Shown piece by piece: positions 9,354-37,434 of a DNA stretch of 52,646 nt (the first letter of the stretch is position 1; each line of letters opens with the position of its first letter). The position numbers and the translations under genes are program-made. Source of the DNA: a virus; IMG/VR virus record IMGVR_UViG_3300021091_000106, positions 1 to 52,646 of that record; one strand, given 5' to 3'. Under the pieces are notes generated by a model. The model was not told the origin of the DNA and ran no database searches. It saw nothing but the letters and a program-made list of their open reading frames with translations.

Positions 9354-10062
9354 TAGGATCATATTTTTTATAAATGCTTTGAACCTCAGACATCCAAGGT
9401 TCATCTCTCATTTTCCAATCCATATCATAATCTAATGTGATATGTTCGGAACCAATATACCTATCAATGTATGATTTGATTAGAGTCTCTCCTAGCGAGA
9501 CATCACCCCAATCATTATCGTGCATCTCTTTTGTTCGTTCATATAATTTGAGATATTTCTTCATCCAATATCCATTTCCATGTGCAAAATAATCCACATA
9601 AGAGTCTTCTGGATTACATGGACCTGGATGAACCTTCCATACTGGTAAAACCAGATCTTGATCTAATTGTAATTTAAAATTTCTAATTGAAAAATCGGAT
9701 CTACATTTAATGACAGTATTATAATCTCTAGGATCGAATAATCGTAATCCGAGATAATTTGTATACCATTGTCTTAATATTCTGTAAGACCATTCTCTAC
9801 CACTAATTTCTAATCCATCATCTTTAAAGTTAAATGGCGGCAATGTCTCTACATCTCTAAAAAGATATTCTTTTGGTTTATATGCCTCTATGACTTTTTT
9901 AGTGTCAATTTGTATTATTCCAGAACCCATGTAAAGTTCTGAGTAACTATATGAACTGATATAAACGTCGGCGTTATATTTTTTTATAATATTTTCCTGG
10001 ATATTTGAGAAGTGGTCTTCCCAATTCCTCATGTATCCAGTTAATAATAGAGCAATTTTCAC
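9322..10062 (-). CDS. Glycosyltransferase-like protein on the opposite strand
   Basis: 246 residues with a GTG start at 10062, giving VKIALLLTGYMRNWEDHF; longer upstream starts would overlap the next gene's leader. The N-terminus (beta strand then a 'G-x-RxW' turn), a NADVYISSYSY block, a WYTNYLGLRLF block and a VIKCRSDFSI block match the pattern of LPS/capsule-type (WavE-like) glycosyltransferases, in which the Arg-x-Asp region acts like a sugar-nucleotide site. This is pattern recognition, and the family assignment is moderate. It is one of only two minus-strand genes and interrupts the late + strand series, as expected of an inserted accessory gene. Target: host LPS or virion glycan, unknown. 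Confidence 0.65.
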   Translation of the reverse strand: MKIALLLTGYMRNWEDHFSNIQENIIKKYNADVYISSYSYSELYMGSGIIQIDTKKVIEAYKPKEYLFRDVETLPPFNFKDDGLEISGREWSYRILRQWYTNYLGLRLFDPRDYNTVIKCRSDFSIRNFKLQLDQDLVLPVWKVHPGPCNPEDSYVDYFAHGNGYWMKKYLKLYERTKEMHDNDWGDVSLGETLIKSYIDRYIGSEHITLDYDMDWKMRDEPWMSEVQSIYKKYDPIKVVTTEKGE

Positions 10063-10070
10063 AATAAATA
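10063..10070 (+). promoter_or_regulatory. Candidate T4-like late promoter box
   Basis: AATAAATA, one base from the T4 late consensus TATAAATA, 22 bases before the ATG at 10093. It begins one base beyond the first base of the minus-strand GTG start. The same spacing class is seen at other boxes in the window. Confidence 0.5.
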
Positions 10071-10092
10071 TAAAAAACACATATAATGATTT

Positions 10093-10845
10093 ATGGGAAT
10101 TGTAATAGATAGGTTGCAAGCAGATCGACAGATGTATCTGCTTCAACAACAAAAATTACCACCAAGAATTGCTATAGCTAGTTCTTTGAGGGATTCATTT
10201 ACTGGTCCTGCTAGGGAAGCGACAAGTCAAACACTTACTAGTATAAATTCCGCAAATAGTTTAAAGAGTCAGATTATTGCTATTGGTGGAAATACTGGAT
10301 TAACAACTACAAGATATGGTGCTAGCACTTCAAATATAACCTCTCAATATGGGAGTATAGTATCTGGAGTTGCAACTGCTACTGGAGCAAGTCTTGGAAT
10401 TTCTGGTTTGGGAACTGTTATTATTGCATATGGGACCTTAACATCAGATCAGGCAAGAGTGTATGATTATCCCAAAGTATCTGGAGGAGATTATAGTTCA
10501 GATTTTCCATTTATTGGAGAAGGATTTGTTGTCCTGACAAGCTCCAACCTTGGTGCTGGGGTTAGCACTAGACTGTTCCAATCTAGTGGATCTGAAATTG
10601 GTAAAGTATTTGATATTACTGGACCAGCAGTAAATGTAAGTTCTTTAATCAATCAATATAATTCAACATGGTCTACCGCTGGTAGTCAAGCAACAGCATC
10701 AACCGCAGCACAAGAAGTAAAGGGTGATTATGAATTGCAGGTGTGGGGACTTAACCGACAAAAGCAAGAGAATATTGAAAAACTTGTTGATATTGAAGAA
10801 GCAATTGGAATCTCATCAAACCCTGCTTATGGGGGACCTTGGTAG
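10093..10845 (+). CDS. Hypothetical structural-type protein
   Basis: 250 residues, small-residue rich (Gly, Ser, Thr, Ala), no cysteine-rich or catalytic motif. The N-terminal 40 residues are helical and basic (GIVIDRLQADRQMYLLQQQK), the middle is beta-like and Gly/Ser-rich, and the C-terminal 60 residues are a charged helix (EVKGDYELQVWGLNRQKQEN). It has its own late-type box. I read it as a virion or assembly protein because of its composition and late-type box; no family was recognised. Confidence 0.7.
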   Translation: MGIVIDRLQADRQMYLLQQQKLPPRIAIASSLRDSFTGPAREATSQTLTSINSANSLKSQIIAIGGNTGLTTTRYGASTSNITSQYGSIVSGVATATGASLGISGLGTVIIAYGTLTSDQARVYDYPKVSGGDYSSDFPFIGEGFVVLTSSNLGAGVSTRLFQSSGSEIGKVFDITGPAVNVSSLINQYNSTWSTAGSQATASTAAQEVKGDYELQVWGLNRQKQENIEKLVDIEEAIGISSNPAYGGPW

Positions 10846-10850
10846 GGGGG

Positions 10851-10863
10851 GGGTTGACAACCC
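10851..10863 (+). repeat. Palindrome containing the -35 box
   Basis: GGGTT-GAC-AACCC, a 5-base-pair stem with a 3-base loop, within a run of Gs. The -35 hexamer TTGACA (10854-10859) is inside it. There is no T tract after it, so termination is uncertain. The same palindrome, lengthened, recurs at 18950-18968. Confidence 0.75.
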
Positions 10864-10882
10864 AGAAGCAACTTCGTATAAT
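10854..10882 (+). promoter_or_regulatory. Perfect sigma70-type promoter before the tRNA cluster
   Basis: TTGACA (10854-10859), a 17-base spacer and TATAAT (10877-10882) match the consensus exactly. The expected start is near 10889. It drives at least tRNA-Gly and perhaps the tRNA/small gene cluster, and would be read by host RNA polymerase, in contrast with the late boxes nearby. Confidence 0.85.
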
Positions 10883-10888
10883 ATATGA

Positions 10889-10941
10889 GTAATCAGTTGA
10901 GGGGTCGCCCAAGTCTCAGCCTAGATCTTCTCTCTGATTAC
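10889..10941 (+). other. Structured leader at the predicted transcript start
   Basis: A perfect 8-base inverted repeat GTAATCAG (10889-10896) and CTGATTAC (10934-10941) encloses smaller pairs (TGAG/CTCA, GGG/CCC). It begins where transcription should start. It may protect the 5' end or guide processing of tRNA-Gly, which starts 8 bases later. No function is proven. Confidence 0.55.
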
Positions 10942-10948
10942 CCCACAC

Positions 10949-11019
10949 GCGAATGTGGTGTAGCGGTAACATCCCATCCTTCCAAGTTGGTGTCACGGGT
11001 TCGATCCCCGTCATTCGCT
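10949..11019 (+). tRNA. tRNA-Gly (anticodon UCC)
   Basis: 71 nt cloverleaf: acceptor GCGAATG pairs with CATTCGC; D arm GTGT/ACAT (one G-U pair); anticodon loop CTTCCAA with UCC at its centre; T stem ACGGG/CCCGT with loop TTCGATC; discriminator U. CCA is not encoded. The anticodon stem has one T-T mismatch. It reads GGA codons, which are frequent in this phage. Confidence 0.9.
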
Positions 11020-11020
11020 T

Positions 11021-11034
11021 CCCCTTTACTGGGG
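11021..11034 (+). terminator. Short hairpin after tRNA-Gly
   Basis: CCCC-TTTACT-GGGG hairpin with a weak T-rich tail (ATTTGC). It may be a weak terminator or a processing signal. The stem is only four pairs. Confidence 0.35.
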
Positions 11035-11053
11035 ATTTGCAAATTAAATAACC

Positions 11054-11251
11054 ATGATAAAAAAACCTCTTTATTCTGACCTGATTAAAATGCCTGTAAA
11101 GACAACTCCAGAGAATGTCAAGGAAGCAAACCAAGGTCTTTTTAATTGTATGATGACACTTCCTGCCGCAGCAAAACACTGTGGAATGACCCAAAAAGAA
11201 ATGAAAATGACTTTTAGGGAATATTTGAAGTATCATCCACCTACTTACTAA
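11054..11251 (+). CDS. Small hypothetical protein, helical
   Basis: 65 residues between tRNA-Gly and tRNA-Leu. A central segment (AAAKHCGMTQKEMKMTFREY) resembles a helix-turn-helix, typical of small DNA-binding proteins, but the rest is too short to place in a family. It lies downstream of the sigma70-type promoter, so it is probably transcribed with the tRNAs. Confidence 0.65.
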   Translation: MIKKPLYSDLIKMPVKTTPENVKEANQGLFNCMMTLPAAAKHCGMTQKEMKMTFREYLKYHPPTY

Positions 11252-11265
11252 GAGTAAGTTCTTAT

Positions 11266-24461: not shown

Positions 24462-24627
24462 ACTGATACATCTAAAGATTCAAGCAGCAATGCGCGAAAA
24501 GTATTTTGATGAAGAACAAATGAAATATTTGGGAGTTCGTGATGGAGAACATTGGTATCTTGTTGCCAATGAGCACGAGGTTCCAGTATCAGCAATTGAA
24601 GAGTTTGATCAAGTTGAAGATGAATGA
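24442..24627 (+). CDS. Small hypothetical protein
   Basis: 61 residues from ATG 24442, preferred over an in-frame TTG at 24415 because AGAGG lies about ten bases upstream. Acidic C-terminus. It overlaps both neighbours. Unknown function. Confidence 0.6.
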   Translation: MKISQSELIHLKIQAAMREKYFDEEQMKYLGVRDGEHWYLVANEHEVPVSAIEEFDQVEDE

Positions 24628-25102
24628 ATTTTTAGTAGAGGATGAAGTAAGTAATTACTTTAATCTTCTACTTGAATTTGTTTCTAATTATCCAGAAGTT
24701 TTTAGAGATGAGAAGCAGAGTTCTTTGATTGGAAACTGTTTTTATACTTTAAATCTTTTGAATTATATTGATACGGAAATCTTTTATAACTATATTGATA
24801 AACTTCGTTTGTTATGTGAGGATTTTTCAAATAGACAATTAAAGTATTTTTACGTTCATATGATTAATTACGAAAATGGTGGTAGAATGCACGTACATAA
24901 ACATGATCATAATGAAGATTATAGTTTTATACTTTACTTGAATTCTTGTAATGATGGAGAAACCATCCTTCATACAACTGAAGGTGAATATAAAGTTACT
25001 CCTGAAAGAAATAAAGTATTGCTATTTCCTTCAAACATACCACATTCAGCAGCATACTCTAAATCTAAAAGAGTTCTTGTTGGTGGATTAAAAATTAACT
25101 AA
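24620..25102 (+). CDS. 2OG-Fe(II) oxygenase-like protein
   Basis: 160 residues from ATG 24620, overlapping the previous stop; longer frames upstream do not fit the family start. HVHKHDHNEDYSFILYL near residue 90 gives metal-binding histidines, and KVLLFPSNIPHSAAYSK then a basic residue near 140-150 supplies the third histidine and the Arg/Lys that binds 2-oxoglutarate. It opens the radical-SAM/oxygenase island. Substrate unknown. Confidence 0.75.
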   Translation: MNEFLVEDEVSNYFNLLLEFVSNYPEVFRDEKQSSLIGNCFYTLNLLNYIDTEIFYNYIDKLRLLCEDFSNRQLKYFYVHMINYENGGRMHVHKHDHNEDYSFILYLNSCNDGETILHTTEGEYKVTPERNKVLLFPSNIPHSAAYSKSKRVLVGGLKIN

Positions 25103-25108
25103 AAAATT

Positions 25109-25285
25109 ATGGAAAAACAACAAAAAAGACGCGATGCATTTAATCTTTTTTATGAAAGCGTCTTAAAACCAGATCATGAGTTGCGTGAAGTTGCTCATGA
25201 GCAACAGTGTTATTATGAGTTGATGGATTGGAGACAAGAAATACTTACATATTTGGATAAACGAAGAATAGAAGAATTTAATTGA
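25109..25285 (+). CDS. Small hypothetical protein
   Basis: 58 residues, basic N-terminus (MEKQQKRRD), highly helical. It sits between an oxygenase and a radical-SAM gene with gaps of 6 and 1 bases, so it is in the same transcript. No family recognised. Confidence 0.65.
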   Translation: MEKQQKRRDAFNLFYESVLKPDHELREVAHEQQCYYELMDWRQEILTYLDKRRIEEFN

Positions 25286-25286
25286 T

Positions 25287-26105
25287 ATGTTAAAAGTACC
25301 TCACGAGATACAATTACATGTTACTCACTCTTGCAATTTAACTTGTGAGGGATGTACACATTATATGAATCAGGGGCACTCTGGATCTATTACTTTAGAG
25401 GAAGCTGCAAAGTGGATGAGTAATTGGAATGATAAAATTCTTCCGATGAGATTTACTTTAATGGGTGGCGAACCAGCATTACATCCAGATCTGACGGAAT
25501 TCGTATATCTTGCTAGGGAGATGTGGCCTAACTCTTATACAGAAGTTATTTCTAATGGATTTCATTTACATAAACATCCACATTTGTGGAAGGCTTTAAA
25601 GAGAACAAATACTATTCTCGGAGTATCTGTTCACTCTGATGGTGATCTTCAATACAGAGAAAAATTTGAGTCTGTATATGCGTTAATGAAAGAGTGGATT
25701 ACAAAAGGTGCTCCTGTAGAAATACGACCATCAATTATACATTGGATTAGGCAATATAAGGGTTTCGGTGATAAAATGGAACCATTTGAAGACAATGATC
25801 CGAAATCCAGTTGGAAGTGCTGTGTCTCTAAATTGTGTGTTCAATTACATGAGGGAAAACTTTGGAAGTGTCCAGCACTTGCATACTTACCAATGCAGGC
25901 ACAAAAGTATAATTTGTCTGAAAAATGGGATCCATATTTAAAATATGTTCCTTTAGATCATACCTGTAGTAAAGATGAACTAAAGCAATTTTTCACTAAA
26001 AAGGAAGAATCTTTTTGTTCAATGTGCCCCGCAAAAGAAGAATACTTTACTCCTGAGAATCCTCTCCTACCTCTAAGTCATTGGAAAAAGTTGTATGATA
26101 CCTGA
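25287..26105 (+). CDS. Radical SAM protein with C-terminal cysteine motifs
   Basis: 272 residues. CNLTCEGC near residue 16-23 is the CxxxCxxC 4Fe-4S/SAM motif; MGGEPALH and ISNGF are the further SAM-binding and barrel segments. After residue 180 come further cysteines (WKCCVSKLC, WKCPAL, FCSMCP), the pattern of an auxiliary cluster (SPASM-like). Such enzymes make peptide- or sugar-modifying radicals; the substrate is unknown. It has a clear paralog at 28746, and oxygenase genes lie beside both. Confidence 0.85.
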   Translation: MLKVPHEIQLHVTHSCNLTCEGCTHYMNQGHSGSITLEEAAKWMSNWNDKILPMRFTLMGGEPALHPDLTEFVYLAREMWPNSYTEVISNGFHLHKHPHLWKALKRTNTILGVSVHSDGDLQYREKFESVYALMKEWITKGAPVEIRPSIIHWIRQYKGFGDKMEPFEDNDPKSSWKCCVSKLCVQLHEGKLWKCPALAYLPMQAQKYNLSEKWDPYLKYVPLDHTCSKDELKQFFTKKEESFCSMCPAKEEYFTPENPLLPLSHWKKLYDT

Positions 26106-26748
26106 AGAGTTTGTGGAATATCCAGAAGATCCCCGAAACGTAGAGCACTTTGATTTCTGTGGCAATACAATTTACAGGGCTTATAATATGCTAAGTAAAT
26201 ATGATCAATCTAATTTATTAAAAGAGATTGATAATGAACTTGAAGTATGTGATGATAAGTGGGATTCCAGTGTAGAAGCAACAAATAGACTTCAAGATCG
26301 AAAATTATGGTATAAGACTAGTTGGACTAATTTTTTTAAATTAGTTAAGTCTCATTTGTATAACTATGCGGAGATAACCAACAATCCCAGGATCAAAGAA
26401 TATCATGTTCAATCATACTGGGCGAAGAGAATGAAGGGAGTGAGTGAAGAGAATTATACTCACGAGTTATACATCAATTATGGGAATAGTCACAGTCATG
26501 AGCACTTTGATTTGGGTATGATATATTATCTTAAGAATCCATCCAGAATATATGGAACTTTAATAGAAAACAAGGATAGAGAGATAATTATTCCTGGTGA
26601 TGAGAATTCTCTTTTGATTCATCATTCTCATATAAATCACCAACCAGTGATGCCACCACCAGTGGTTGCACAAAAGTATTATCGTTGTGTTATTGTGGTT
26701 GATTTTATGCACCCATCAAAGTTAAAAGCATATGAACGCAGCAGATAA
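26095..26748 (+). CDS. 2OG-Fe(II) oxygenase-like protein
   Basis: 217 residues starting 11 bases inside the radical-SAM gene. SHEHFDLGMIYYLKN near residue 140-155 has the His..Asp pair; LLIHHSHINHQP near 180-190 has the distal histidine and RCVIVV a basic residue. It directly follows a radical-SAM gene, as 28746 is directly preceded by two oxygenases, so the pair probably acts on one substrate. Confidence 0.75.
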   Translation: MIPEEFVEYPEDPRNVEHFDFCGNTIYRAYNMLSKYDQSNLLKEIDNELEVCDDKWDSSVEATNRLQDRKLWYKTSWTNFFKLVKSHLYNYAEITNNPRIKEYHVQSYWAKRMKGVSEENYTHELYINYGNSHSHEHFDLGMIYYLKNPSRIYGTLIENKDREIIIPGDENSLLIHHSHINHQPVMPPPVVAQKYYRCVIVVDFMHPSKLKAYERSR

Positions 26749-26965
26749 AATACAATACGCAAGTATTTTGACTAAAATCAATAAGGGGAAAATATCTGAG
26801 TTGACCGAAGATGATTATCTATGGTTAAAACAACATCCCACAATCATACCCGAAATCAGATGGCAAAGAAAAAAGTCTGAAGTAATGGAAATTAACAAAG
26901 ATTGTAAGGGAACCATCAACGAGATATTGCATAATTTAGATTTATCAGATAGAATGATGAGGTGA
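26732..26965 (+). CDS. Small hypothetical protein
   Basis: 77 residues overlapping the oxygenase by 17 bases. Helical, Lys/Glu-rich, with a TEDDYLWLKQHP block. Unknown function. Confidence 0.65.
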   Translation: MNAADKIQYASILTKINKGKISELTEDDYLWLKQHPTIIPEIRWQRKKSEVMEINKDCKGTINEILHNLDLSDRMMR

Positions 26966-26971
26966 TATAAT
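26966..26971 (+). promoter_or_regulatory. Candidate -10 box
   Basis: TATAAT after the stop at 26965; only a weak -35 (TTATCA) lies at 26942-26947, 18 bases upstream. Possible weak internal promoter for the HNH gene region. Confidence 0.35.
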
Positions 26972-26985
26972 TAGTATTGGTTCTG

Positions 26986-27180
26986 ATGCTTTCTATTTTT
27001 GATATTATGCACGACGAACGTCGTTATGGTTGGGTTGTTGATAAACGATATGATTGGATCAATATGCTTCATAAGATGGAAAAGTATAATCCAAAAAGAT
27101 TTGATGAATTTCAATATTCTAAGGAGACAATTTATCATCACTTAGACAGAATACAGCAAGAGCAAAATGTTTATGACTAA
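26986..27180 (+). CDS. Small hypothetical protein
   Basis: 64 residues from ATG 26986, preferred over an in-frame TTG at 26977. Rich in Tyr, Arg and Asp (MHDERRYGWVVDKRYDW). Ends two bases before the HNH gene. Unknown function. Confidence 0.6.
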   Translation: MLSIFDIMHDERRYGWVVDKRYDWINMLHKMEKYNPKRFDEFQYSKETIYHHLDRIQQEQNVYD

Positions 27181-27182
27181 GT

Positions 27183-27662
27183 ATGGAACATTTAAAGATT
27201 AAACCAAACCAAACTATTCTTGTTCTCAATTCAAGTTATGAACCAATCAATTTTACTAATTGGAAGAGGGCGGTTATTTTAGTTTTAAAGGAAAAGGTTC
27301 AAGTCATATCTGAAAGAGTAATTAGATTACTGAGTTATATTAAAGTCCCGATTAATTATGCTGCCAGGTGCCGACCATCAAGATCAATGATTTATAAAAG
27401 AGATCGTAATACCTGCCAATATTGTGGATCAACGCATAGATTAACTATAGATCATGTTCTTCCCCGTAGTAAAGGTGGTGAGGATAATTGGGAAAATTTA
27501 GTTGTTGCATGTTCTACATGCAATACTAAAAAGGGGAATAGACTATTAGAACATACTAATATGAGATTAGTTCGTCAACCACGAGCACCTTGGAATAAAG
27601 TTGCATTTGATTTGGCAAATTGTAACGTGCCTGAATGGAAAGAATATTCTTACGCTGACTAG
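27183..27662 (+). CDS. HNH endonuclease
   Basis: 159 residues. The HNH fold is clear: zinc-binding CQYCG and CSTC pairs, the LTIDHVLPRSKGG block (metal-binding Asp-His), NWENLVVAC with the central Asn, and a basic tail (RAPWNK). A standalone HNH nuclease with an N-terminal 70-residue part, common in cyanophages, and often a homing or mobile nuclease. It interrupts the radical-SAM/oxygenase island, so it may have brought or split flanking genes. Confidence 0.9.
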   Translation: MEHLKIKPNQTILVLNSSYEPINFTNWKRAVILVLKEKVQVISERVIRLLSYIKVPINYAARCRPSRSMIYKRDRNTCQYCGSTHRLTIDHVLPRSKGGEDNWENLVVACSTCNTKKGNRLLEHTNMRLVRQPRAPWNKVAFDLANCNVPEWKEYSYAD

Positions 27663-27672
27663 GAGATTTTAA

Positions 27673-28224
27673 ATGTTTTTTCGTAAATTAAATAGACAAT
27701 TTTTTGTAGGTTCCTATCTTAAAACTGGTAAAAAAATTGAATATGGAATGGATACTCCATTTGGATTTGCTGGAATTAAATATTCATATATCAACACTAA
27801 AGATGAAAGCGGTCTTCTTGAGGTAATTCCAGAATCTTATAGGGACAACTGCACACTATCTTTGATGGAATTGAATTATAAGATTCCTCCTCATACTGAT
27901 AGTAACATTGAGGCAATCATCAACTTTTATATTAAGACAGATAGATGTGTAACTCAATTTTATTATCCACAAGAGGAAGCGTCCACAACTAAAATTGCAA
28001 ATCAAACAGATGGTGCAATCTTCCATGAAGGTCATCTAAAAAAATCTGTAAGATTTATGGCACACCCTGGAGATGCATATCTCCTTGATGTATCTAAACC
28101 ACACTCGGTCTATCCTATGGAAGCAGGACTCCCTGATCGTAAAGCAATTTGTTTACAAATTCTTTATAAGTCTTTTGATGAAGCAGTAGAGATGTTAAAA
28201 GAGACAGGATACATTGATGAATAA
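27673..28224 (+). CDS. Oxygenase-fold protein, aspartyl hydroxylase-like
   Basis: 183 residues with a good Shine-Dalgarno (AGGAG, 7 bases upstream). IPPHTDSN near residue 76 gives a His-x-Asp pair; SKPHSVYP near 145 gives the second His, and DRKAICLQILY the anchoring basic residue. The layout recalls aspartyl/asparaginyl beta-hydroxylase-type cupins. A divergent non-catalytic member cannot be ruled out. It overlaps the next oxygenase by 8 bases. Confidence 0.65.
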   Translation: MFFRKLNRQFFVGSYLKTGKKIEYGMDTPFGFAGIKYSYINTKDESGLLEVIPESYRDNCTLSLMELNYKIPPHTDSNIEAIINFYIKTDRCVTQFYYPQEEASTTKIANQTDGAIFHEGHLKKSVRFMAHPGDAYLLDVSKPHSVYPMEAGLPDRKAICLQILYKSFDEAVEMLKETGYIDE

Positions 28225-28759
28225 TATAGAAGTTATTGATAATTATCTCCACAAAAGAGAACATCAATTAATTTATGATTACTTTACTGGTGCCTTAGAT
28301 AAGGGAGATACCGCAAATTCTTGTACATGGACTTTTTTCCCTGGATGTAGTATGTTGGGTGATGAAGATAATTGGTTTCACTTTACACAATTAATTTTTG
28401 CCTCACATACTATTTTAAGTCCATCTTTTGATTTGATGCGACCCATTATACAAAAAGAAAACATGTCAGCAATTGCTAGAATTAAGGCAAATTGTATGAT
28501 AATGACTGAACAACTAAAGGTTTTTACTAATGGATTTCACTGTGATTTTAGGGGACATTTAACAACAGGAATTTATTATATAAATTCAAATGATGGATAT
28601 ACTTTGTTTGAAAATGGAACAAAAGTTAAAAGTGTTGCAAATAGATTCTGCAAATTCGATTGTAATTTAAAACACACTGCAACTACGTGTACAAATTCAA
28701 CCACACGCTTATTAATTAATTTTAATTATCATTCTCATCCTAAAGATGAAACAGTTTGA
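28217..28759 (+). CDS. 2OG-Fe(II) oxygenase
   Basis: 180 residues from ATG 28217; an in-frame TTG immediately before it is less likely. FHCDFRGHLTTGIYYIN near residue 100-115 has the His-x-Asp pair, and LKHTATTCTNSTTRLLINF the distal His and Arg. Full set of oxygenase residues. Starts inside the previous stop and ends inside the following radical-SAM start, so translation is coupled. Confidence 0.8.
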   Translation: MNNIEVIDNYLHKREHQLIYDYFTGALDKGDTANSCTWTFFPGCSMLGDEDNWFHFTQLIFASHTILSPSFDLMRPIIQKENMSAIARIKANCMIMTEQLKVFTNGFHCDFRGHLTTGIYYINSNDGYTLFENGTKVKSVANRFCKFDCNLKHTATTCTNSTTRLLINFNYHSHPKDETV

Positions 28760-29597
28760 TACCAAACAGATAGAACTGCATGTTACTCATGCATGTAATT
28801 TTTCATGTGAGGGATGCTCTCATTACTCTAATCATGGACACTCTGGCACACTAAATCTAGAAACTGCAAAAGAATGGCTATATATTTGGGGTCAAAGAGT
28901 CAAACCTAAAACATTTGTTATACTTGGTGGAGAACCAACTCTTAATAAAGAATTGGTCGATCTTGTATATTTGGTGAGGATGATATATCCAGATCCATAT
29001 ACTCAAATTGATTTAGTTTCAAATGCTAGTTTTTTGCACTTACATCCCAAGTTACCAAAAGCTTTGATTGCGACTCAAACTAATCTTGCAATATCAATTC
29101 ATAGTACAACACATAAGGACTACGTAAAAAAGTTTAAAACGGGATATAATCTTGCCAAACAGTGGAAGCATGATCTTGGAGTTCATGTTGAATTTTGGGA
29201 TTATACTAACGAACATTGGACTCCACAATATAAAGGGTTCGGTTCAAACATGATTCCTTACGAGGATAATAATTCTCGTAAAAGTTGGGAAATTTGTATC
29301 TCTAAACATGCTATTCAGTTGCATGAAAATAAACTTTGGAAGTGCCCAGCATTAGCATATTTGCCAATGCAATCTAAAAAATATAATCTTAGTGCTAAAT
29401 GGGAACCATATTTAAAATATGCTCCATTAGATGTAAGTTGCACAGACGATGAATTGGAAGAATTTTTAGGTAGAGAAGATGAATCATATTGTTCAATGTG
29501 TCCCGCAAATAAGGTTAAAAATTTTGTAAAAGAAGATCCAACACTACCAGTAAGTTATTGGGAGAAAAGATATGATAACATGGGGAATATCATCTAA
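28746..29597 (+). CDS. Radical SAM protein, paralog of 25287
   Basis: 283 residues, coupled to the preceding oxygenase (14-base overlap). CNFSCEGC near residue 17, LGGEPTLN, and the C-terminal WKCPALAYLPMQ and YCSMCP blocks mirror the protein at 25287 but the middle region differs. Same inferred chemistry with probably a different substrate. It overlaps the carbamoyltransferase start by 26 bases. Confidence 0.85.
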   Translation: MKQFDTKQIELHVTHACNFSCEGCSHYSNHGHSGTLNLETAKEWLYIWGQRVKPKTFVILGGEPTLNKELVDLVYLVRMIYPDPYTQIDLVSNASFLHLHPKLPKALIATQTNLAISIHSTTHKDYVKKFKTGYNLAKQWKHDLGVHVEFWDYTNEHWTPQYKGFGSNMIPYEDNNSRKSWEICISKHAIQLHENKLWKCPALAYLPMQSKKYNLSAKWEPYLKYAPLDVSCTDDELEEFLGREDESYCSMCPANKVKNFVKEDPTLPVSYWEKRYDNMGNII

Positions 29598-30996
29598 TAG
29601 TCATAATGCTGCTATGTCAGTATTTGTAAAAGACAAATTGGTATTCGCCAGTGAGAGTGAACGATTTAGTAAAATTAAAAATGACCCATATATATCGGAC
29701 TCATTGTTAAATTATGCTTTGAGATATGGAAAACCAGAATTAATCTGCTGGTATGAGAATCCTCTAAAAAAGAGGATGAGGCAAATTTATGCTGGTCAAG
29801 GACCATTTGTTAATAATTTTGAGAGATATTACGAATGTGAACATAAATTCTTTAACCACCACTATACACATGCATGTGGTGGTTATTTTACCAGTAAATT
29901 TAAACATGCTGCTGTTCTTGTTATTGATGCTATTGGTGAATTCCAAACACTTACAATTTGGGAAGCATCTGGTAAAGACTTAAAGTTAAAATATGAATTA
30001 AAATATCCAAATAGTATTGGTTTATTATATTCTGCAATGACTCAAAGATGCGGATTAAAACCTAATGAAGAAGAATATATCTTAATGGCATTATCTGCTT
30101 TAGGTGATAAGAGCAAGTTAAAAGATGCTATCTTTGATGATTTTATAACTGATGATTTTAAATGTAAGGTCAATTTACATCGTGGATGTAAGAATTGGAG
30201 ACCAGAAGAATCTAAAGAAGATATTGCAGCTGCTACTCAAGAAGTATATGAAATACTTTTTAATAATGCATTGAGATTGACTAAAAAATTAGTTCATACT
30301 AATAATCTTGTATTGATGGGTGGATGTGCTTTAAATTGTGTTGCTAATCGACATGCATATAACCACTTTAAGAACGTGTGGATAATGCCAGCACCTGGAG
30401 ATAGTGGTTCTGCGATTGGTGCAGTGTTAGCACATAAAAAGAAACATATCAAATTTACTCCATATCTTGGATATTATTTGCCACATAAGCATACAAATAT
30501 TCAAATAGTAAATTATTTGTATGAACATAAAGTTTGTGGTCTTGCGCGAGGTCGAGCAGAATTTGGACCAAGGGCATTGGGAGCAAGAAGTCTTATTGCA
30601 GATCCAACGGATCCAAATATAAAAGATAAGGTTAATAAGATAAAAAATAGAGAATCTTATAGACCATTCTCTCCAGTTGTTCCAATAGAGTTTGCAAATA
30701 CTTATTTTGATATGCATCATGATTTAGTGGAGAGTCCATTTATGCAACATGCTGTTAGATGTAAGTATCCAGAAAAGTTTCCTGGGATCGTGCATGTTGA
30801 TGGGACAAGTCGATTGCAGACTGTTAAAAAAAGTGATGCTCCTAGACTTTATAATCTTTTATATCAGTGGAAGGAAAAAACTGGACATCCTATGCTATTG
30901 AATACTAGTTTAAATATTAAAGGACAACCAATACTAAATGATGAAATAGATTGTGATAAGTGGTCTAGACTTTACAATATTCAAATATTTTCATGA
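29572..30996 (+). CDS. Carbamoyltransferase, NodU/CmcH family
   Basis: 474 residues. N-terminal Kae1-like part: SSNSHNAAMSVF, FNHHYTHACGGY (metal/phosphate histidines) and VIDAIGE. C-terminal YrdC-like part: GRAEFGPRALGARSL, KNRESYRPFSPVVP and SRLQTV. These are all signature blocks of the family that moves a carbamoyl group from carbamoyl phosphate to a hydroxyl (as in NodU, TobZ). It is somewhat shorter than usual and its C-terminal tail is trimmed. Sugar carbamoylation is the usual role; carbamoylation of a hydroxymethyl base in phage DNA is an alternative known for some phages. It overlaps the SGNH hydrolase by ATGA. Confidence 0.9.
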   Translation: MITWGISSNSHNAAMSVFVKDKLVFASESERFSKIKNDPYISDSLLNYALRYGKPELICWYENPLKKRMRQIYAGQGPFVNNFERYYECEHKFFNHHYTHACGGYFTSKFKHAAVLVIDAIGEFQTLTIWEASGKDLKLKYELKYPNSIGLLYSAMTQRCGLKPNEEEYILMALSALGDKSKLKDAIFDDFITDDFKCKVNLHRGCKNWRPEESKEDIAAATQEVYEILFNNALRLTKKLVHTNNLVLMGGCALNCVANRHAYNHFKNVWIMPAPGDSGSAIGAVLAHKKKHIKFTPYLGYYLPHKHTNIQIVNYLYEHKVCGLARGRAEFGPRALGARSLIADPTDPNIKDKVNKIKNRESYRPFSPVVPIEFANTYFDMHHDLVESPFMQHAVRCKYPEKFPGIVHVDGTSRLQTVKKSDAPRLYNLLYQWKEKTGHPMLLNTSLNIKGQPILNDEIDCDKWSRLYNIQIFS

Positions 30997-31775
30997 CAAT
31001 ATTAAAATTAACTGAAAGAATTGATAATAAATTATTACTTCCAAATAAAGAATTACTTGTTGGAGTTTGCAAGTGGTTTGATCAAGATAGTGAAGTATTA
31101 TATCAAAAAAATTTAAAAGAACTTCCAAAAGAGTGGAGATTTAGGACAAAAACCGTTGAATATAATATTAACAGTGCTGGTTATCGAACAAAAGAATTTG
31201 ATAAAATTAATTGGGCAAAATCGATTGTAGTTTTTGGAGATTCTTGCGTTTTTGGTGTTGGGTTGCCTGAGGAAGATACATTATGCTATAAAATACAGAA
31301 AGCACTTAATATTCCTGTAGTTAATTTGGGTGCTGCAGGGTCGTCTTCACTATATACTCTTCATAATGCTGCATTATTAAGTGAATCATATCCAACACCA
31401 AGAGCAATTGTAAGTTTGTGGACCTCTCCATATAGACTACCATATTACACCAATGATAGAGTTATGAACTGTGGTAATTGGAATTATGATCGATTTAAAA
31501 TTGGTTATTATTGGAATGAAAACAAGGATAATGCGATAATCCAATTAAAATTAAATGCCATAGCATTTAGAGAAATGTGGAAGAATAGGACTAATTATTT
31601 TGAACTAAGTTTATTCCCAGATACCGCTCAGATTTTACAATGTAATTTTGTAAATCAAATTGATTTTGCCAGAGATATGAGGAAGCAAAAGTCTGGATAT
31701 TATTCCGCACATCCAGGAGAGAAGACAAATCAATTTGCCGCAGAAAAGGTAATTGCTGGGTTGCAGATTGGGTGA
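30993..31775 (+). CDS. SGNH-hydrolase-like protein
   Basis: 260 residues. VVFGDSCVFGVG near residue 75 is a GDS block with the nucleophile Ser; NLGAAGSSS is the glycine block; SAHPGEKTN is the His block. SGNH proteins act as esterases or acyltransferases on carbohydrates. A block V Asp three residues before the His is not visible. It overlaps the carbamoyltransferase by ATGA, so a shared sugar target is likely. A paralog lies at 32757. Confidence 0.75.
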   Translation: MTILKLTERIDNKLLLPNKELLVGVCKWFDQDSEVLYQKNLKELPKEWRFRTKTVEYNINSAGYRTKEFDKINWAKSIVVFGDSCVFGVGLPEEDTLCYKIQKALNIPVVNLGAAGSSSLYTLHNAALLSESYPTPRAIVSLWTSPYRLPYYTNDRVMNCGNWNYDRFKIGYYWNENKDNAIIQLKLNAIAFREMWKNRTNYFELSLFPDTAQILQCNFVNQIDFARDMRKQKSGYYSAHPGEKTNQFAAEKVIAGLQIG

Positions 31776-31789
31776 TTCTGTGTTATCAT
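31761..31789 (+). promoter_or_regulatory. Candidate weak promoter
   Basis: TTGCAG, 17-base spacer, TATCAT. It overlaps the end of the SGNH gene and could serve the small genes from 31812. Confidence 0.35.
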
Positions 31790-31811
31790 AATAAGAGATG
31801 CTATAGAGGAC

Positions 31812-31961
31812 ATGGCAATCCGCACATTTTCTGACAAAAATTCAAATGATTGGAGTTGGGAAGAGACTCCAGAAACAATTGAAGCATTAAAGCAACTTCA
31901 TAATACTGTAACTCAGGTAAATGAGAATAAAGTTCTGAAACCAAAGCCTGTAAAGAAATGA
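31812..31961 (+). CDS. Small hypothetical protein
   Basis: 49 residues, AGAGGA upstream. Lys/Glu-rich and helical. Overlaps the next gene by ATGA. Unknown function. Confidence 0.6.
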   Translation: MAIRTFSDKNSNDWSWEETPETIEALKQLHNTVTQVNENKVLKPKPVKK

Positions 31962-32131
31962 CAGAAGATAAGAAGTTGATTGATGATTGCTTTTACGTTG
32001 ATTCAAAAAAATATGGACTCTGGTATTCAACAGACAAAGAAGGTAACGGACTTATCACGGCTCTCACTGAAAAGTCATGTATATCAGGAACCCGTTTTTA
32101 TCTTAAAGGACGGCAGGAAGGTTGGTCTTAG
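31958..32131 (+). CDS. Small hypothetical protein
   Basis: 57 residues (starts MTEDKKLIDDCFYVD). Part of the small-gene chain between the two SGNH genes. No family recognised. Confidence 0.6.
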   Translation: MTEDKKLIDDCFYVDSKKYGLWYSTDKEGNGLITALTEKSCISGTRFYLKGRQEGWS

Positions 32132-32156
32132 ACCAAAACCTATGAAGGTAATGTAG

Positions 32157-32324
32157 ATGGAAAACTCTAAAGAATATCCATATCATGAATTAGACCCAAC
32201 AACTCCTTGGTATGAGTGGTTGATGTATTGTGAGATATGTCATCAATTAAACGTTGTTGGGCAACCATCTTTAGGTAGATTCGCTGCATATAGACGTTAT
32301 TTAAAATCGGTAGGTGTTTTATGA
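32157..32324 (+). CDS. Small hypothetical protein
   Basis: 55 residues (MENSKEYPYHELDP start), Tyr- and Arg-rich C-terminus. Overlaps the next start by ATGA. Unknown function. Confidence 0.6.
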   Translation: MENSKEYPYHELDPTTPWYEWLMYCEICHQLNVVGQPSLGRFAAYRRYLKSVGVL

Positions 32325-32587
32325 TGATTAAAAGATTTGTTGACTGGTTCTTTGCATCAGACAAAGAGAAGAAAGTGATTGTAGATTGTGCTGACAACTT
32401 TGTTGGAAGTAAGTTTACTTTACTTGACCTTATCCAGTCTTTGGAAACAAGATTGGAGAGACTTGAACGGGAAAACGTAGAGACAACAAATGCTCTCTAT
32501 GAGATGGAGAATAGACTTCAAGCACAAATCGATGCTCATTGCCCACCAATATATAGTATGAATGATTATTCTTTGGGAGACAAGTAA
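32321..32587 (+). CDS. Small coiled-coil hypothetical protein
   Basis: 88 residues starting ATGATG; ETRLERLERENVETTNALYEM gives a strong heptad-like coiled coil. N-terminal part is hydrophobic and basic (KRFVDWFFAS), possibly membrane-associated. Unknown function. Confidence 0.65.
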   Translation: MMIKRFVDWFFASDKEKKVIVDCADNFVGSKFTLLDLIQSLETRLERLERENVETTNALYEMENRLQAQIDAHCPPIYSMNDYSLGDK

Positions 32588-32760
32588 TGTACGAACTTGA
32601 TGATTTTGAAAAAGCACTTGCTCATTTCGGAACTCGTGTTGATGTTATCATTGCTATGGAAATGGGTGGTAAAATTGATGGTCAATCTGCATATAAAGAA
32701 ATTAAGGCAGAATTAAAAGAACTTAAAAGAGCAAAAAAGCAATACGCTAAAGAACAGTGA
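32587..32760 (+). CDS. Small hypothetical protein
   Basis: 57 residues overlapping the upstream stop; Lys/Glu-rich helical end. It overlaps the second SGNH gene start by GTGA. Confidence 0.6.
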   Translation: MYELDDFEKALAHFGTRVDVIIAMEMGGKIDGQSAYKEIKAELKELKRAKKQYAKEQ

Positions 32761-33533
32761 AGGTTAATCCCAATATCATAAGATCTATCAATTCTTCTGA
32801 TTTTATTCCTCTTCCAAACATAACAGTTCAAAATTTTGAACAATTCAAATGGAAAGGTGATGATATATCTGGATCTTGGGATTTTTTTGGATCAGATGAT
32901 TATAATAATTATCAAAATAATTTAAAAATACAACCATTAAATTGGTATTATCGACGCAATCAAATAAAATATACTCTTAATTCGCATGGGTATAGAGCGA
33001 AGGAATTTAAAGATATTAATTGGAAAGATTCTATAGTTATTTTTGGTTGCTCATATATCTTTGGGACTGGTGTGGATGATTCACATACAATACCTGCAGT
33101 CTTAGAAAAACTTTGTAAAACACCTGTAATTAATTTGGGAATGGGTGGGTCATCTATACAATTTGCCTTACATAATTCTTTAATGCTTTATAAAAAGTAT
33201 GGTTCTCCAAAATGTGTCATTTATGGGATGCCAGGTATTACAAGATATTTGATGTATCAAAGAAATCATGTAGAATTAAAACTTGATTGTGATAATACTA
33301 AACTTGTAGATCATTTGGTTCCTTTTAATCTTGTAAATGTTGAGTTAATTAGGAATTTATGGGAAAATAAGAGTCAATATTATGAATTTTCATTATTTCC
33401 AACAACATCAAAAATATTAGGATGTGATTTGTTTCATCCTATACCCGAGGATTATGCTAGGGACATGAGTCATCCTGGTATTGAATCCAACAAATTAATC
33501 GCACAAAAGATTTACAACACCTTCAGTTTATGA
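32757..33533 (+). CDS. SGNH-hydrolase-like protein, paralog of 30993
   Basis: 258 residues from a GTG start at 32757 inside the upstream GTGA. VIFGCSYIFGTG has GCS in place of GDS, keeping the Ser; NLGMGGSSI and SHPGIESN follow. About the same length and layout as the protein at 30993. The changed block I may alter or abolish activity. Probably acts with the carbamoyltransferase on a sugar. Confidence 0.7.
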   Translation: MKVNPNIIRSINSSDFIPLPNITVQNFEQFKWKGDDISGSWDFFGSDDYNNYQNNLKIQPLNWYYRRNQIKYTLNSHGYRAKEFKDINWKDSIVIFGCSYIFGTGVDDSHTIPAVLEKLCKTPVINLGMGGSSIQFALHNSLMLYKKYGSPKCVIYGMPGITRYLMYQRNHVELKLDCDNTKLVDHLVPFNLVNVELIRNLWENKSQYYEFSLFPTTSKILGCDLFHPIPEDYARDMSHPGIESNKLIAQKIYNTFSL

Positions 33534-33974: not shown

Positions 33975-34538
33975 ATGGCAGCAACATTAACCGCTACTGG
34001 TTTAACCTTTGATGACGGAACTTCATTAAATTCAAAGTATGGAGTTTTGGCACAAGGAACAGTATCGGTATTTTTTCAATCCTCAGCACCAACTGGATGG
34101 ACACAAGTTACCACTCATAATGATAAAGCACTGAGAGTTGTGTCTGGAACTGGTGGTGATTTTGGATTTGGTGGAGTATCTGGTGCTGGTGGATTATCAT
34201 TTAGTACAGTATTTCCAAGTAGCACTTCTCCAGTTAGTGTTAATTTTAATGCAAATGTTCCTGTTAGTGGAACTGTTGGAGATACAACATTAACAACTTC
34301 ACAAATACCGAATCATACTCATAACTCTCTTACTGGTGGAAGCGCAAATGCTGCTAGTGGAGGATCTAGTTTTTTGGTAAGTGGAACAAATAATACTGGT
34401 GGAGTTGTGTCTCCTGGGGGAATTGGAGGATCACATAATCACCCATTCAGTGGTAATATAAATTTTACTGCAACTGGTAGTGGAACAATTGACCTGAGAC
34501 TACAGTATATCGACGTTATTCTCTGCTCTTTTAATTAA
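33975..34538 (+). CDS. Tail-collar / microcystin-dependent-protein-like fiber protein
   Basis: 187 residues. The N-terminal part is TLTATGLTFDDGT; then VFFQSSAPTGWTQV and DKALRVVSGTGG (collar-domain blocks), TSQIPNHTHN, GGSHNHPFSG, IDLRLQYIDVILCS. This is the phage tail collar (T4 gp12/short fiber-like) domain. Late box upstream. Paired with the next gene, one base after its stop. Confidence 0.8.
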   Translation: MAATLTATGLTFDDGTSLNSKYGVLAQGTVSVFFQSSAPTGWTQVTTHNDKALRVVSGTGGDFGFGGVSGAGGLSFSTVFPSSTSPVSVNFNANVPVSGTVGDTTLTTSQIPNHTHNSLTGGSANAASGGSSFLVSGTNNTGGVVSPGGIGGSHNHPFSGNINFTATGSGTIDLRLQYIDVILCSFN

Positions 34539-34539
34539 T

Positions 34540-35115
34540 ATGGCAAGACTAACTTCTACTGGCATTTTGTTTGATATTGCAGATACTGCAAATTCTATTA
34601 ATAGTTTTTATTGGTTGTATCCTGCTGGTACTGTAAAAGTCTTTTATCAGTCGGCAGCACCAACGGGATGGACTAAAATTGCTACTCAAAATAATAAAGC
34701 ATTAAGGGTTGTTTCTGGAACAGGTGGTGGATCTGGAGGAACAACAAATTTTACAACAGTGTTGTCATCAGCAGCTGGTAATTTATCTGTAAATGTTAAT
34801 AATACATTTCCAGTTCAAGTTGTCTCTGGACTTGGACAAAACGTTGGCGATACAACATTATCTTTATCCCAATTACCAGATCACGTTCACTTTGGACTCA
34901 CTGGATCACCAGGAGGATCTGGTGCTACACCTTTTAGTAATACTGGTGGTAGACTTGTTTTTGGTAGTACAGCTACAGGTCAAATGATAGAAAACACTGG
35001 TGGTGGTTCTCATACACACCCCTTTAGTGGATCTGCAACCATGAATGAGACAAGAACTTTTGGATTGGATTTGTCGGTGCAATACATAGACACCATCATT
35101 TGCTCATTAAACTAA
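34540..35115 (+). CDS. Tail-collar protein, paralog of upstream gene
   Basis: 191 residues. Same blocks: VFYQSAAPTGWTKI, NKALRVVSGTGG, LSQLPDHVHFG, GGGSHTHPFSG, LSVQYIDTIICSLN. N-terminal 30 residues differ. Two adjacent collar proteins may form heterotrimers or be alternative tips; both are needed or redundant. Confidence 0.8.
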   Translation: MARLTSTGILFDIADTANSINSFYWLYPAGTVKVFYQSAAPTGWTKIATQNNKALRVVSGTGGGSGGTTNFTTVLSSAAGNLSVNVNNTFPVQVVSGLGQNVGDTTLSLSQLPDHVHFGLTGSPGGSGATPFSNTGGRLVFGSTATGQMIENTGGGSHTHPFSGSATMNETRTFGLDLSVQYIDTIICSLN

Positions 35116-35486: not shown

Positions 35487-36283
35487 AAAAATTTACATTA
35501 ATTGAACAGGATCGATACATTGGTATTGATGGCATAGGTATTTTCTTCGATGAAAATAATTGGCCATTTGCAGATATAGAACATCTTTGGGCTATTCAAT
35601 GGAAAGATAATGGGACTGAGGATGGTGATGGATGGATTGAATATGATTCTCCTGTTCCAAACACTCCATGCACTCTTGCTGATGTTCAAAAGTATGTAAA
35701 TCATTTTGATGCTGAATATGAGCGTCAAATGGATACTAAAAGGAAGAAAGAAGAGGAAGACGCTAGAAAAGCAATTTCATGGCAGGATGCTATGAGAGAA
35801 CTGGAAGAGCAGATGGAAAAGATGCAACAACGTCATGAGAAGACGATTGAAACTATCAAAGAAGATCATGATGCTCAGATGCAAAAAGTGCATCAAAGAG
35901 TTGCAGAATCTCACGAGAATCTGTTCTATTCCGCTGGTGTGATGCAGGATAATATTGAGGAAAGTAAGAATGCATTCCAAGTTGAAGCGGGATATGATAA
36001 TTTAACTATCTTTGATGGTAATGTTGATCCATCGCTGTTTGATGAGTCTATTGACGAATCATTCTTTGATGATACAACCATATCTGAAGAAATGTTATTG
36101 AGCAATCCAGATTTGGGCAATCGAAATGTTATTGAAAACTTTAACAACATTGATTTAAGTGTATTGGATAGTGAGTTTAATCTTGAACTGTTGTTTGAGG
36201 AAGATCCAACTGAGCAAGTTGTAAATGAAATTGAAGAACTGATTGAAGAAGTTGAAAATGAGGAGGATTCCGCTGCTAAATGA
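35483..36283 (+). CDS. Hypothetical coiled-coil acidic protein
   Basis: 266 residues. The N-terminal 70 residues are globular (FTLIEQDRYIGIDGIGIFF). Residues about 95-150 form a long charged coiled coil, and the C-terminal third is very acidic (many Glu/Asp). Ends at an ATGA overlap with the tandem oxygenase. Function unknown; a scaffold or DNA-mimic role is speculative. Confidence 0.65.
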   Translation: MKKFTLIEQDRYIGIDGIGIFFDENNWPFADIEHLWAIQWKDNGTEDGDGWIEYDSPVPNTPCTLADVQKYVNHFDAEYERQMDTKRKKEEEDARKAISWQDAMRELEEQMEKMQQRHEKTIETIKEDHDAQMQKVHQRVAESHENLFYSAGVMQDNIEESKNAFQVEAGYDNLTIFDGNVDPSLFDESIDESFFDDTTISEEMLLSNPDLGNRNVIENFNNIDLSVLDSEFNLELLFEEDPTEQVVNEIEELIEEVENEEDSAAK

Positions 36284-37434
36284 TTTCTAAATTATTTGAA
36301 GACAACTATCTGGTTGTTCCTAACTTTATATCATCAGACAAAGCAAAGCAATTAGCAGAAGATTTTAAACAATATGCAGATACTTATGATCTAAAAGAAG
36401 ATCCTCAAGTATCTGATTGTAAAAGTAAGTATGATCACATTTCTTTTGTTGAATTGTTGTGTGAAAAAACAACCACAGTATCTCAGTTAATTGGAGAGAC
36501 TGTGGTTCCAACATATTCTTATGCAAGAATATATCAACATGGCAATGAATTAAAGCCTCATGTTGATAAGTGTCAGTGTGAGATATCATTGACTGTTAAT
36601 TTAGATTGCGATGAACCATGGGCAATATGGATTGAGACTCCTAAAAAGATAAAGAAAGAGGTAGTTTTAAATCCAGGTGATGCAATGCTTTACTTGGGTA
36701 TGGAAGGTCTTCATTGGAGAGAACCATTCAAAGGAACATATTGTAATCAGGTGTTCTTACATTATGTAAGAAGTCGTGGACCTTATTTTGCTAGTTACTT
36801 TGATAAAGACCGCAAAATAACCAATGATACTATTAAATCAGTTGAGAATAAAGTTACTGTGTCTAAAAGTTTGAATAGAGTTGCAAGTTATATTAAAATC
36901 TATGATGATATTCTTACAAAAGAAGAATGTGACTTCATCATAGGAGAATATAAGAATGCAGTGGAGTGGAGAACGTCAGAAATTGGTGTGAGTGGTAATC
37001 AAAATACTTCAGTCAGAAATTGTGATATTATTAATATATCTCTGGGTCATGTAATTGATGCCAATCAAGATATTAGAAAGAGAATAGATGATATTCTTTT
37101 TAATAAATCTGCACTTGCTGCAAAAAAGTATATTGCAGACTTTCCTGATTGTTTTTTACAGTCTGATAGTGGATATGACCTTTTAAGATATCAAGAGGGT
37201 GGGTATTATATTCAGCACACTGATAACTTTAAGACACAACCTAGAACGGTGTCTATGTCATTTAATTTGAATGATGATTATATTGGTGGTGAGTTTGCAT
37301 TCTTTGATAGAGAGATGCAAATTAGAACAAGACCAGGTTCTGTTGTTGTATTCCCATCCAACTTCATGTATCCTCATGAGGTTATGCCTGTTATTAAAGG
37401 AACACGATACTCAATTGTCACCTGGTTCACTTGA
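36280..37434 (+). CDS. Tandem 2OG-Fe(II) oxygenase protein
   Basis: 384 residues with two oxygenase-like halves. First: KPHVDKCQCEISL (His-x-Asp near residue 94), GDAMLYLGMEGLHWREP (His). Second: YYIQHTDNFKTQ near residue 313, SMSFNLNDDYIGGEFAF, GSVVVFPSNFMYPHEV, KGTRYSIVTWF, a full prolyl-4-hydroxylase-like set with His, Asp, His and Arg. So at least the second half should be active. Two linked domains suggest one hydroxylates and the other binds, or sequential oxidation of one substrate. Confidence 0.8.
   Translation: MISKLFEDNYLVVPNFISSDKAKQLAEDFKQYADTYDLKEDPQVSDCKSKYDHISFVELLCEKTTTVSQLIGETVVPTYSYARIYQHGNELKPHVDKCQCEISLTVNLDCDEPWAIWIETPKKIKKEVVLNPGDAMLYLGMEGLHWREPFKGTYCNQVFLHYVRSRGPYFASYFDKDRKITNDTIKSVENKVTVSKSLNRVASYIKIYDDILTKEECDFIIGEYKNAVEWRTSEIGVSGNQNTSVRNCDIINISLGHVIDANQDIRKRIDDILFNKSALAAKKYIADFPDCFLQSDSGYDLLRYQEGGYYIQHTDNFKTQPRTVSMSFNLNDDYIGGEFAFFDREMQIRTRPGSVVVFPSNFMYPHEVMPVIKGTRYSIVTWFT

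Follow-up and report, generated by a model that had tools for sequence, protein, structure and literature searches.

A radical-SAM, oxygenase and carbamoyltransferase cassette of a T4-like cyanophage with a probable role in glycan tailoring

The DNA analysed here, a virus record of 52.6 kb (the window), encodes a tail lysozyme hub protein and tail genes, as well as a 1,939-aa protein bearing a Peptidase_S74 chaperone domain. The presence of psbA/psbD-type genes in the largest related contigs indicates that the lineage infects cyanobacteria; the window is a fragment of a T4-like cyanophage. Within 9 kb (24620-33533) we found nine named enzyme ORFs, all of them open (Table 1). They comprise every gene listed in the original prediction, namely two radical-SAM proteins, four oxygenase-fold proteins, a carbamoyltransferase (CT) and two SGNH-like proteins.

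Table 1. Genes of the cassette and of its downstream surroundings in the window
Feature	Assignment	Coordinates	Strand	Basis and remarks
oxA	2OG-Fe(II) oxygenase	24620..25102	+	PF13640; lies before the overlapping genes; start codon ATG at 24620
rS1	twitch-type radical SAM protein	25287..26105	+	PF04055, 5.9e-11
oxB	2OG-oxygenase-fold protein	26095..26748	+	AF2 model and Foldseek; overlaps rS1
Small conserved ORF		26732..26965	+	no family match
HNH endonuclease	HNH endonuclease	27183..27662	+	between oxB and oxC
oxC	DSBH (2OG/cupin-like) protein	27673..28224	+	AF2 model and Foldseek
oxD	2OG-oxygenase-like protein	28217..28759	+	phrog_274; relatives have 0-3 copies in tandem
rS2	twitch-type radical SAM protein, rS1 paralogue	28746..29597	+	PF04055
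CT	NodU/TobZ-type O-carbamoyltransferase	29572..30996	+	PF02543, PF16861, phrog_1601
SGNH1	SGNH-like hydrolase or acyltransferase	30993..31775	+	motifs, weak GDSL match
SGNH2	SGNH1 paralogue	32757..33533	+	present in some relatives only
Two tail-collar-like proteins	tail-collar-like	33975..35115	+	context; after the cassette in every relative reaching that far; no Pfam match
oxE	2OG oxygenase	36280..37434	+	PF13640; context

The genes had also been described as mostly coupled by stop-start overlaps. This holds for five junctions (rS1/oxB, oxC/oxD, oxD/rS2, rS2/CT and CT/SGNH1), all of which recur in relatives, but not for the gap of 184 bp between oxA and rS1, for oxB and oxC, which are separated by the HNH endonuclease and small ORFs, or for SGNH2, which is preceded by about 1 kb of small ORFs. 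A longer form of oxA, starting at a GTG at 24539, is possible. The HNH endonuclease is probably a passenger gene, since in the 33-contig comparison described below one subgroup showed no copy of it. No glycosyltransferase or sugar-nucleotide enzyme was found inside the cassette, and the sole sugar enzyme detected in the window is a GT11-like gene located 16 kb away. oxE adjoins tail-like genes in the window and radical-SAM/glycosyltransferase clusters in other phages.

A scan with rS1 yielded 33 related viral contigs, some of which are near duplicates and thus represent fewer independent observations. rS1, oxB and oxC are present in 33/33 contigs, rS2 and SGNH1 in 32/32 (leaving out L016, which ends early) and CT in 24 of 32. 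SGNH2 and the HNH endonuclease come and go, as does oxD with its 0 to 3 copies, and the small ORF at 26732-26965 was not found in several relatives. The order rS1-oxB-oxC-(oxD)-rS2-(CT)-SGNH1 is kept, with the same tail-like gene downstream in all 31 contigs that reach it. CT and SGNH1 overlap by 4 bases wherever this was counted, and in the contigs without CT the overlap is between rS2 and SGNH1 (8/8). Shared inheritance, which the original prediction had proposed to check by comparative genomics, was observed for the core rS1-oxB-oxC-rS2-SGNH1 in the 33 contigs, but not for the optional CT or for oxD with its varying copy number.

Values of dN/dS ranged from 0.01 to 0.4 overall and from 0.01 to 0.12 for most enzymes (rS1 0.03-0.07; oxD about 0.1-0.3; SGNH1 0.13-0.4), and the cassette genes are under purifying selection. 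Between L011 and the window, dS is 0.07 for CT and 1.79 for rS1, while CT and SGNH2 are nearly identical (dS <0.1), a pattern indicative of single-gene exchange and mosaic recombination inside the cassette. More distant variants are devoid of rS1 (L124, L125 and L127) or of the rS2-CT-SGNH half (L119 and L120). In two contigs (L012, 11907-13580; L119, 11935-14786) we found RNA-ligase-like, HAD/polynucleotide-kinase-like and HNH genes inside the cassette, identified by eye except for the HNH gene.

Both radical-SAM proteins score above the PF04055 cut-off and are 52% identical to each other. In an alignment of relatives, Cys16/20/23 of the CX3CX2C core and four C-terminal cysteines (179/195/244/247, in the pattern C179...G190x4C195...C244xxC247) are invariant. 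This Cys pattern predicts a twitch domain that holds a single auxiliary cluster, and the proposal of a paralogous pair with C-terminal cysteine clusters was confirmed. In a quick tree, the rS1 and rS2 clades are sisters (SH-aLRT 93) and their split predates the diversification of the lineage, which marks the duplication as old. The proteins are short (272-283 aa). They resemble BtrN, the 2-deoxy-scyllo-inosamine dehydrogenase of butirosin, which oxidises 2-deoxy-scyllo-inosamine (PMC9012708): the CX3CX2C motif is found at residues 16/20/23 in BtrN as well as in rS1 and rS2 (PMC9012708), and the four-Cys auxiliary cluster motif of the twitch domain and a similarly short length are common to them. 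They differ from it in that the phage cassette has two paralogues with oxygenase partners. BtrN was absent among the PDB profile matches up to E 0.1, and no sequence kinship with it was seen. The top NCBIfam match, viperin, was rejected at 47 bits against a cut-off of 180. The closest full-length bacterial relatives come from Planctomycetes, where several have glycosyltransferase-like ORFs as neighbours. In L042, L045 and L052 (~10000-11260; Rhodopirellula-type Planctomycetes), glycosyltransferase-like ORFs are followed by a full-length rS1 relative and then by a conserved proline-rich ORF.

The four 2OG-fold proteins named in the original prediction were upheld by different lines of evidence: a Pfam match for oxA (PF13640), structural models for oxB and oxC, neither of which matches any family, and phrog_274 together with a motif for oxD. 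The AF2 model of oxB (pLDDT 72) clearly predicts a 2OG oxygenase fold, with Foldseek matches to 3bvc (TM 0.61/0.65), PHD2 and vCPH. The oxC model (pLDDT 85) matched NO66, SnoN and cupins, which have DSBH/JmjC/cupin folds, at a modest TM of ~0.45. Alignments of oxA and oxB revealed a conserved His without an unambiguous HxD, and oxC keeps HTD...H in most relatives. The oxC of L021 (12315-12875) lacks both the HxD and the distal His, and that of L010 (13385-13801) is truncated by a deletion spanning the HxD region. In oxD, H108-x-D110, H153 and R164 are invariant and the iron triad is complete; its assignment as a DSBH protein rests on this motif and phrog_274. Because phrog_274, labelled 'DNA endonuclease V', matches both oxD and the Pfam 2OG protein oxA, this label is likely a misannotation. 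PDB sequence searches with oxC and oxD gave nothing convincing, and in the literature we found no paper tying PDB 7wzv to a known enzyme. Searches with oxB and oxC found close relatives solely in this cassette and its variants. Since the oxygenases do not form paralogous pairs, and paralogy is limited to the radical-SAM genes, with their old duplication, and the SGNH genes, we rejected the idea of a duplicated oxygenase-radical SAM-oxygenase pathway.

SGNH1 and SGNH2 are paralogues with 34% identity, in which a G-x-S block and a D/H block, with Ser84, D228 and H240, are invariant. The prediction of two SGNH hydrolases stands at the level of these motifs and of paralogy; the NCBIfam GDSL match is weak (E 1e-3), and no significant family or PDB match was found for the pair.

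CT carries complete Carbam_trans_N and Carbam_trans_C domains and the signature motifs HHxxHA and EFGPRALGxRS, in agreement with the NodU-type carbamoyltransferase proposed. It has both domains and motifs in common with TobZ, NovN, GdmN and NodU, but is shorter (474 aa), phage-borne and encoded downstream of a radical SAM gene. A PDB profile search identified NovN, GdmN and TobZ as solved relatives, the best ones being antibiotic O-carbamoyltransferases. CT also belongs to the same superfamily as the 5hmC carbamoyltransferase (Yang et al. 2021, PMC8670742), which is likewise phage-borne. We mapped three diagnostic positions by alignment to the sequence of that enzyme as printed in PMC8670742. 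At the position of TobZ W408 neither protein has Trp (Leu in CT, Ile in the 5hmC enzyme). At the positions of TobZ G421/R423, CT keeps Gly and Arg (G337/R339), whereas the proven 5hmC enzyme has Cys and Thr (PMC8670742); Gly and Arg are retained in all aligned CTs of the lineage. Moreover, the 5hmC enzyme co-occurs with thymidylate-synthase homologues (PMC8670742), whereas CT has no such partner: PF00303 (thymidylate synthase/dCMP hydroxymethylase) was found in 0/13 and 0/9 lineage records, two overlapping sets of fragments, among them the window and a contig of 246 kb. ThyX is the only thymidylate enzyme detected in the lineage.

Elsewhere, the CT genes of P-SSM2 and S-SCSM1 sit in sugar clusters, and the surroundings of those of S-CAM8 and S-SSM7 gave no sign of one. 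In the Mosig pelagiphage, the radical-SAM protein beside CT aligns over part of the core alone and so lends weak support. In a marine phage (MH319720.1; L003, 9905-12774), ThyX is followed by CT in two ORFs, the first of which encodes the C-terminal domain, and then by a twitch-like radical SAM gene; this is possibly a split or permuted CT beside a thymidylate enzyme.

Homologues of the cassette genes were found within glycan clusters. The phage of L012, a close relative, harbours a second locus (L161) with a twitch radical SAM gene, oxD-like and oxB-like genes and further oxygenases, together with a GDP-mannose 4,6-dehydratase, a GDP-fucose-synthase-like epimerase and glycosyltransferases that include a GT11 fucosyltransferase. 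In the 246-kb relative (G014), a GDP-mannose dehydratase, an epimerase and a GT11 gene adjoin a radical SAM gene. Another phage (L135) combines CT (61%), an SGNH protein and a twitch radical SAM protein with a GDP-mannose dehydratase and GT25/GT11-like genes. Because radical-SAM, oxB and oxD homologues occur in a GDP-fucose cluster, and CT, SGNH and radical-SAM homologues in a GDP-mannose cluster, a sugar substrate is favoured for the cassette, and these contexts support the sugar-tailoring product originally put forward. In an uncontrolled tally of ORFs around distant phage radical-SAM genes, the dominant families were radical SAM, epimerase/dehydratase, 2OG and aminotransferase, so that sugar-nucleotide enzymes are abundant there. 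In six contigs, radical-SAM genes with glycosyltransferases, an aminotransferase and an amidinotransferase lie beside tail-like genes and oxE. In L002 (13417-17081; the cultured phage S-SCSM2R, with a 44% radical-SAM homologue) and L138 (8909-11711), a short DegT-type aminotransferase, a 2OG oxygenase, a twitch radical SAM protein and an amidinotransferase adjoin glycosyltransferases, an arrangement suggestive of a cyanophage pathway to an aminocyclitol or a guanidino-sugar.

Taken together, the locus is probably a cassette for glycan tailoring in a T4-like cyanophage, situated in the tail/host-recognition region. Going by the enzyme families, the target of rS1 and rS2 would be a sugar or aminosugar, oxidised or epimerised at unactivated C-H positions much as BtrN oxidises its aminocyclitol, and the 2OG oxygenases would add hydroxyl groups to that sugar or to its carrier. 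CT would attach an O-carbamoyl group, in the manner of NovN and TobZ, and an O-acyl group would be removed or transferred by the SGNH proteins. The decorated glycan may then alter recognition of the infected host surface or of the phage tail. Counting against this reading, the cassette itself has no glycosyltransferase or sugar-nucleotide gene, the SGNH assignments are at motif level, and oxC is degenerate in L021 and truncated in L010. A more specific version, in which an undescribed sugar, oxidised by the radical-SAM enzymes, hydroxylated by the oxygenases and O-carbamoylated, is attached to the phage tail and alters host recognition, is unlikely; if true, it would place C-H chemistry that needs oxygen and C-H chemistry that is sensitive to it side by side in a single phage operon.

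The same enzymes might instead act directly on tail proteins, hydroxylating or oxidising side chains, with glycosylation or carbamoylation on top. The tail-like genes behind the cassette in each of the 31 relatives that extend this far, the radical-SAM/glycosyltransferase cluster of other phages that also borders tail-like genes and oxE, and the resemblance of the oxB model to protein prolyl hydroxylases are consistent with this reading, which we nevertheless regard as rather unlikely: the synteny may merely mirror the hypervariable host-recognition region (PMC7029224), and core and twitch fill radical-SAM proteins of this size, leaving no space for a domain that recognises peptides. Modification of a RiPP-like ribosomal peptide by radical-SAM and oxygenase maturases is very unlikely. 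In its favour, many SPASM/twitch radical-SAM proteins mature peptides, NCBIfam gave weak matches to maturases of this kind, and a small conserved ORF lies within the block; however, all NCBIfam scores are far under the cut-off, the four-Cys twitch pattern is typical of a small-molecule enzyme, the small ORF was not found in several relatives, and no core peptide is evident.

The variable presence of CT, oxD, SGNH2 and the HNH endonuclease, the recombination of CT apart from rS1 in L011 and the variants devoid of rS1 would also fit a hypervariable region that holds stuffer DNA or loosely linked auxiliary genes and encodes no single pathway. This is improbable, as the core genes are kept together in overlapping frames under strong purifying selection and the close relatives of oxB and oxC are confined to this cassette and its variants. 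Least credible is the hypermodified DNA base carbamoylated at a hydroxymethyl group that the original prediction gave as the other possible product. A phage 5hmC O-carbamoyltransferase is known (PMC8670742) and the marine phage described above has ThyX beside a split CT and a twitch-like radical SAM gene, but we rejected this reading because the lineage records searched yielded no thymidylate-synthase homologue and because CT keeps canonical residues at two diagnostic positions.

The preferred reading, a glycan-tailoring cassette, makes the locus a variant of phage surface-glycan clusters and not a new type of system. Cyanophage and pelagimyophage host-recognition clusters and cyanophage LPS clusters (PMC7029224, PMC3037559) likewise mix tail genes with sugar genes and contain variable radical-SAM cassettes. 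The exchange modules of Campylobacter phages CP220/CPt10 (PMC2853527) are similar in being swappable, unexplained clusters of several radical-SAM genes, but hold five of these genes and an amidinotransferase, whereas here two are combined with oxygenases, CT and SGNH proteins; the group of six contigs recalls these radical-SAM/amidinotransferase modules (PMC2853527). No description of the radical SAM-oxygenase-CT-SGNH combination was found in the literature searched.

Twitch radical-SAM genes of this family, for which a search gave >500 matches in viral contigs, are without explanation in the phage literature searched. The findings speak against assigning phage carbamoyltransferases by default to DNA modification or pyrimidine synthesis, the latter being an annotation given in at least one paper (PMC9146016). 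Together with the GDP-fucose companion locus, the cassette leads to a concrete hypothesis of sugar tailoring in the course of infection, with named enzymes.
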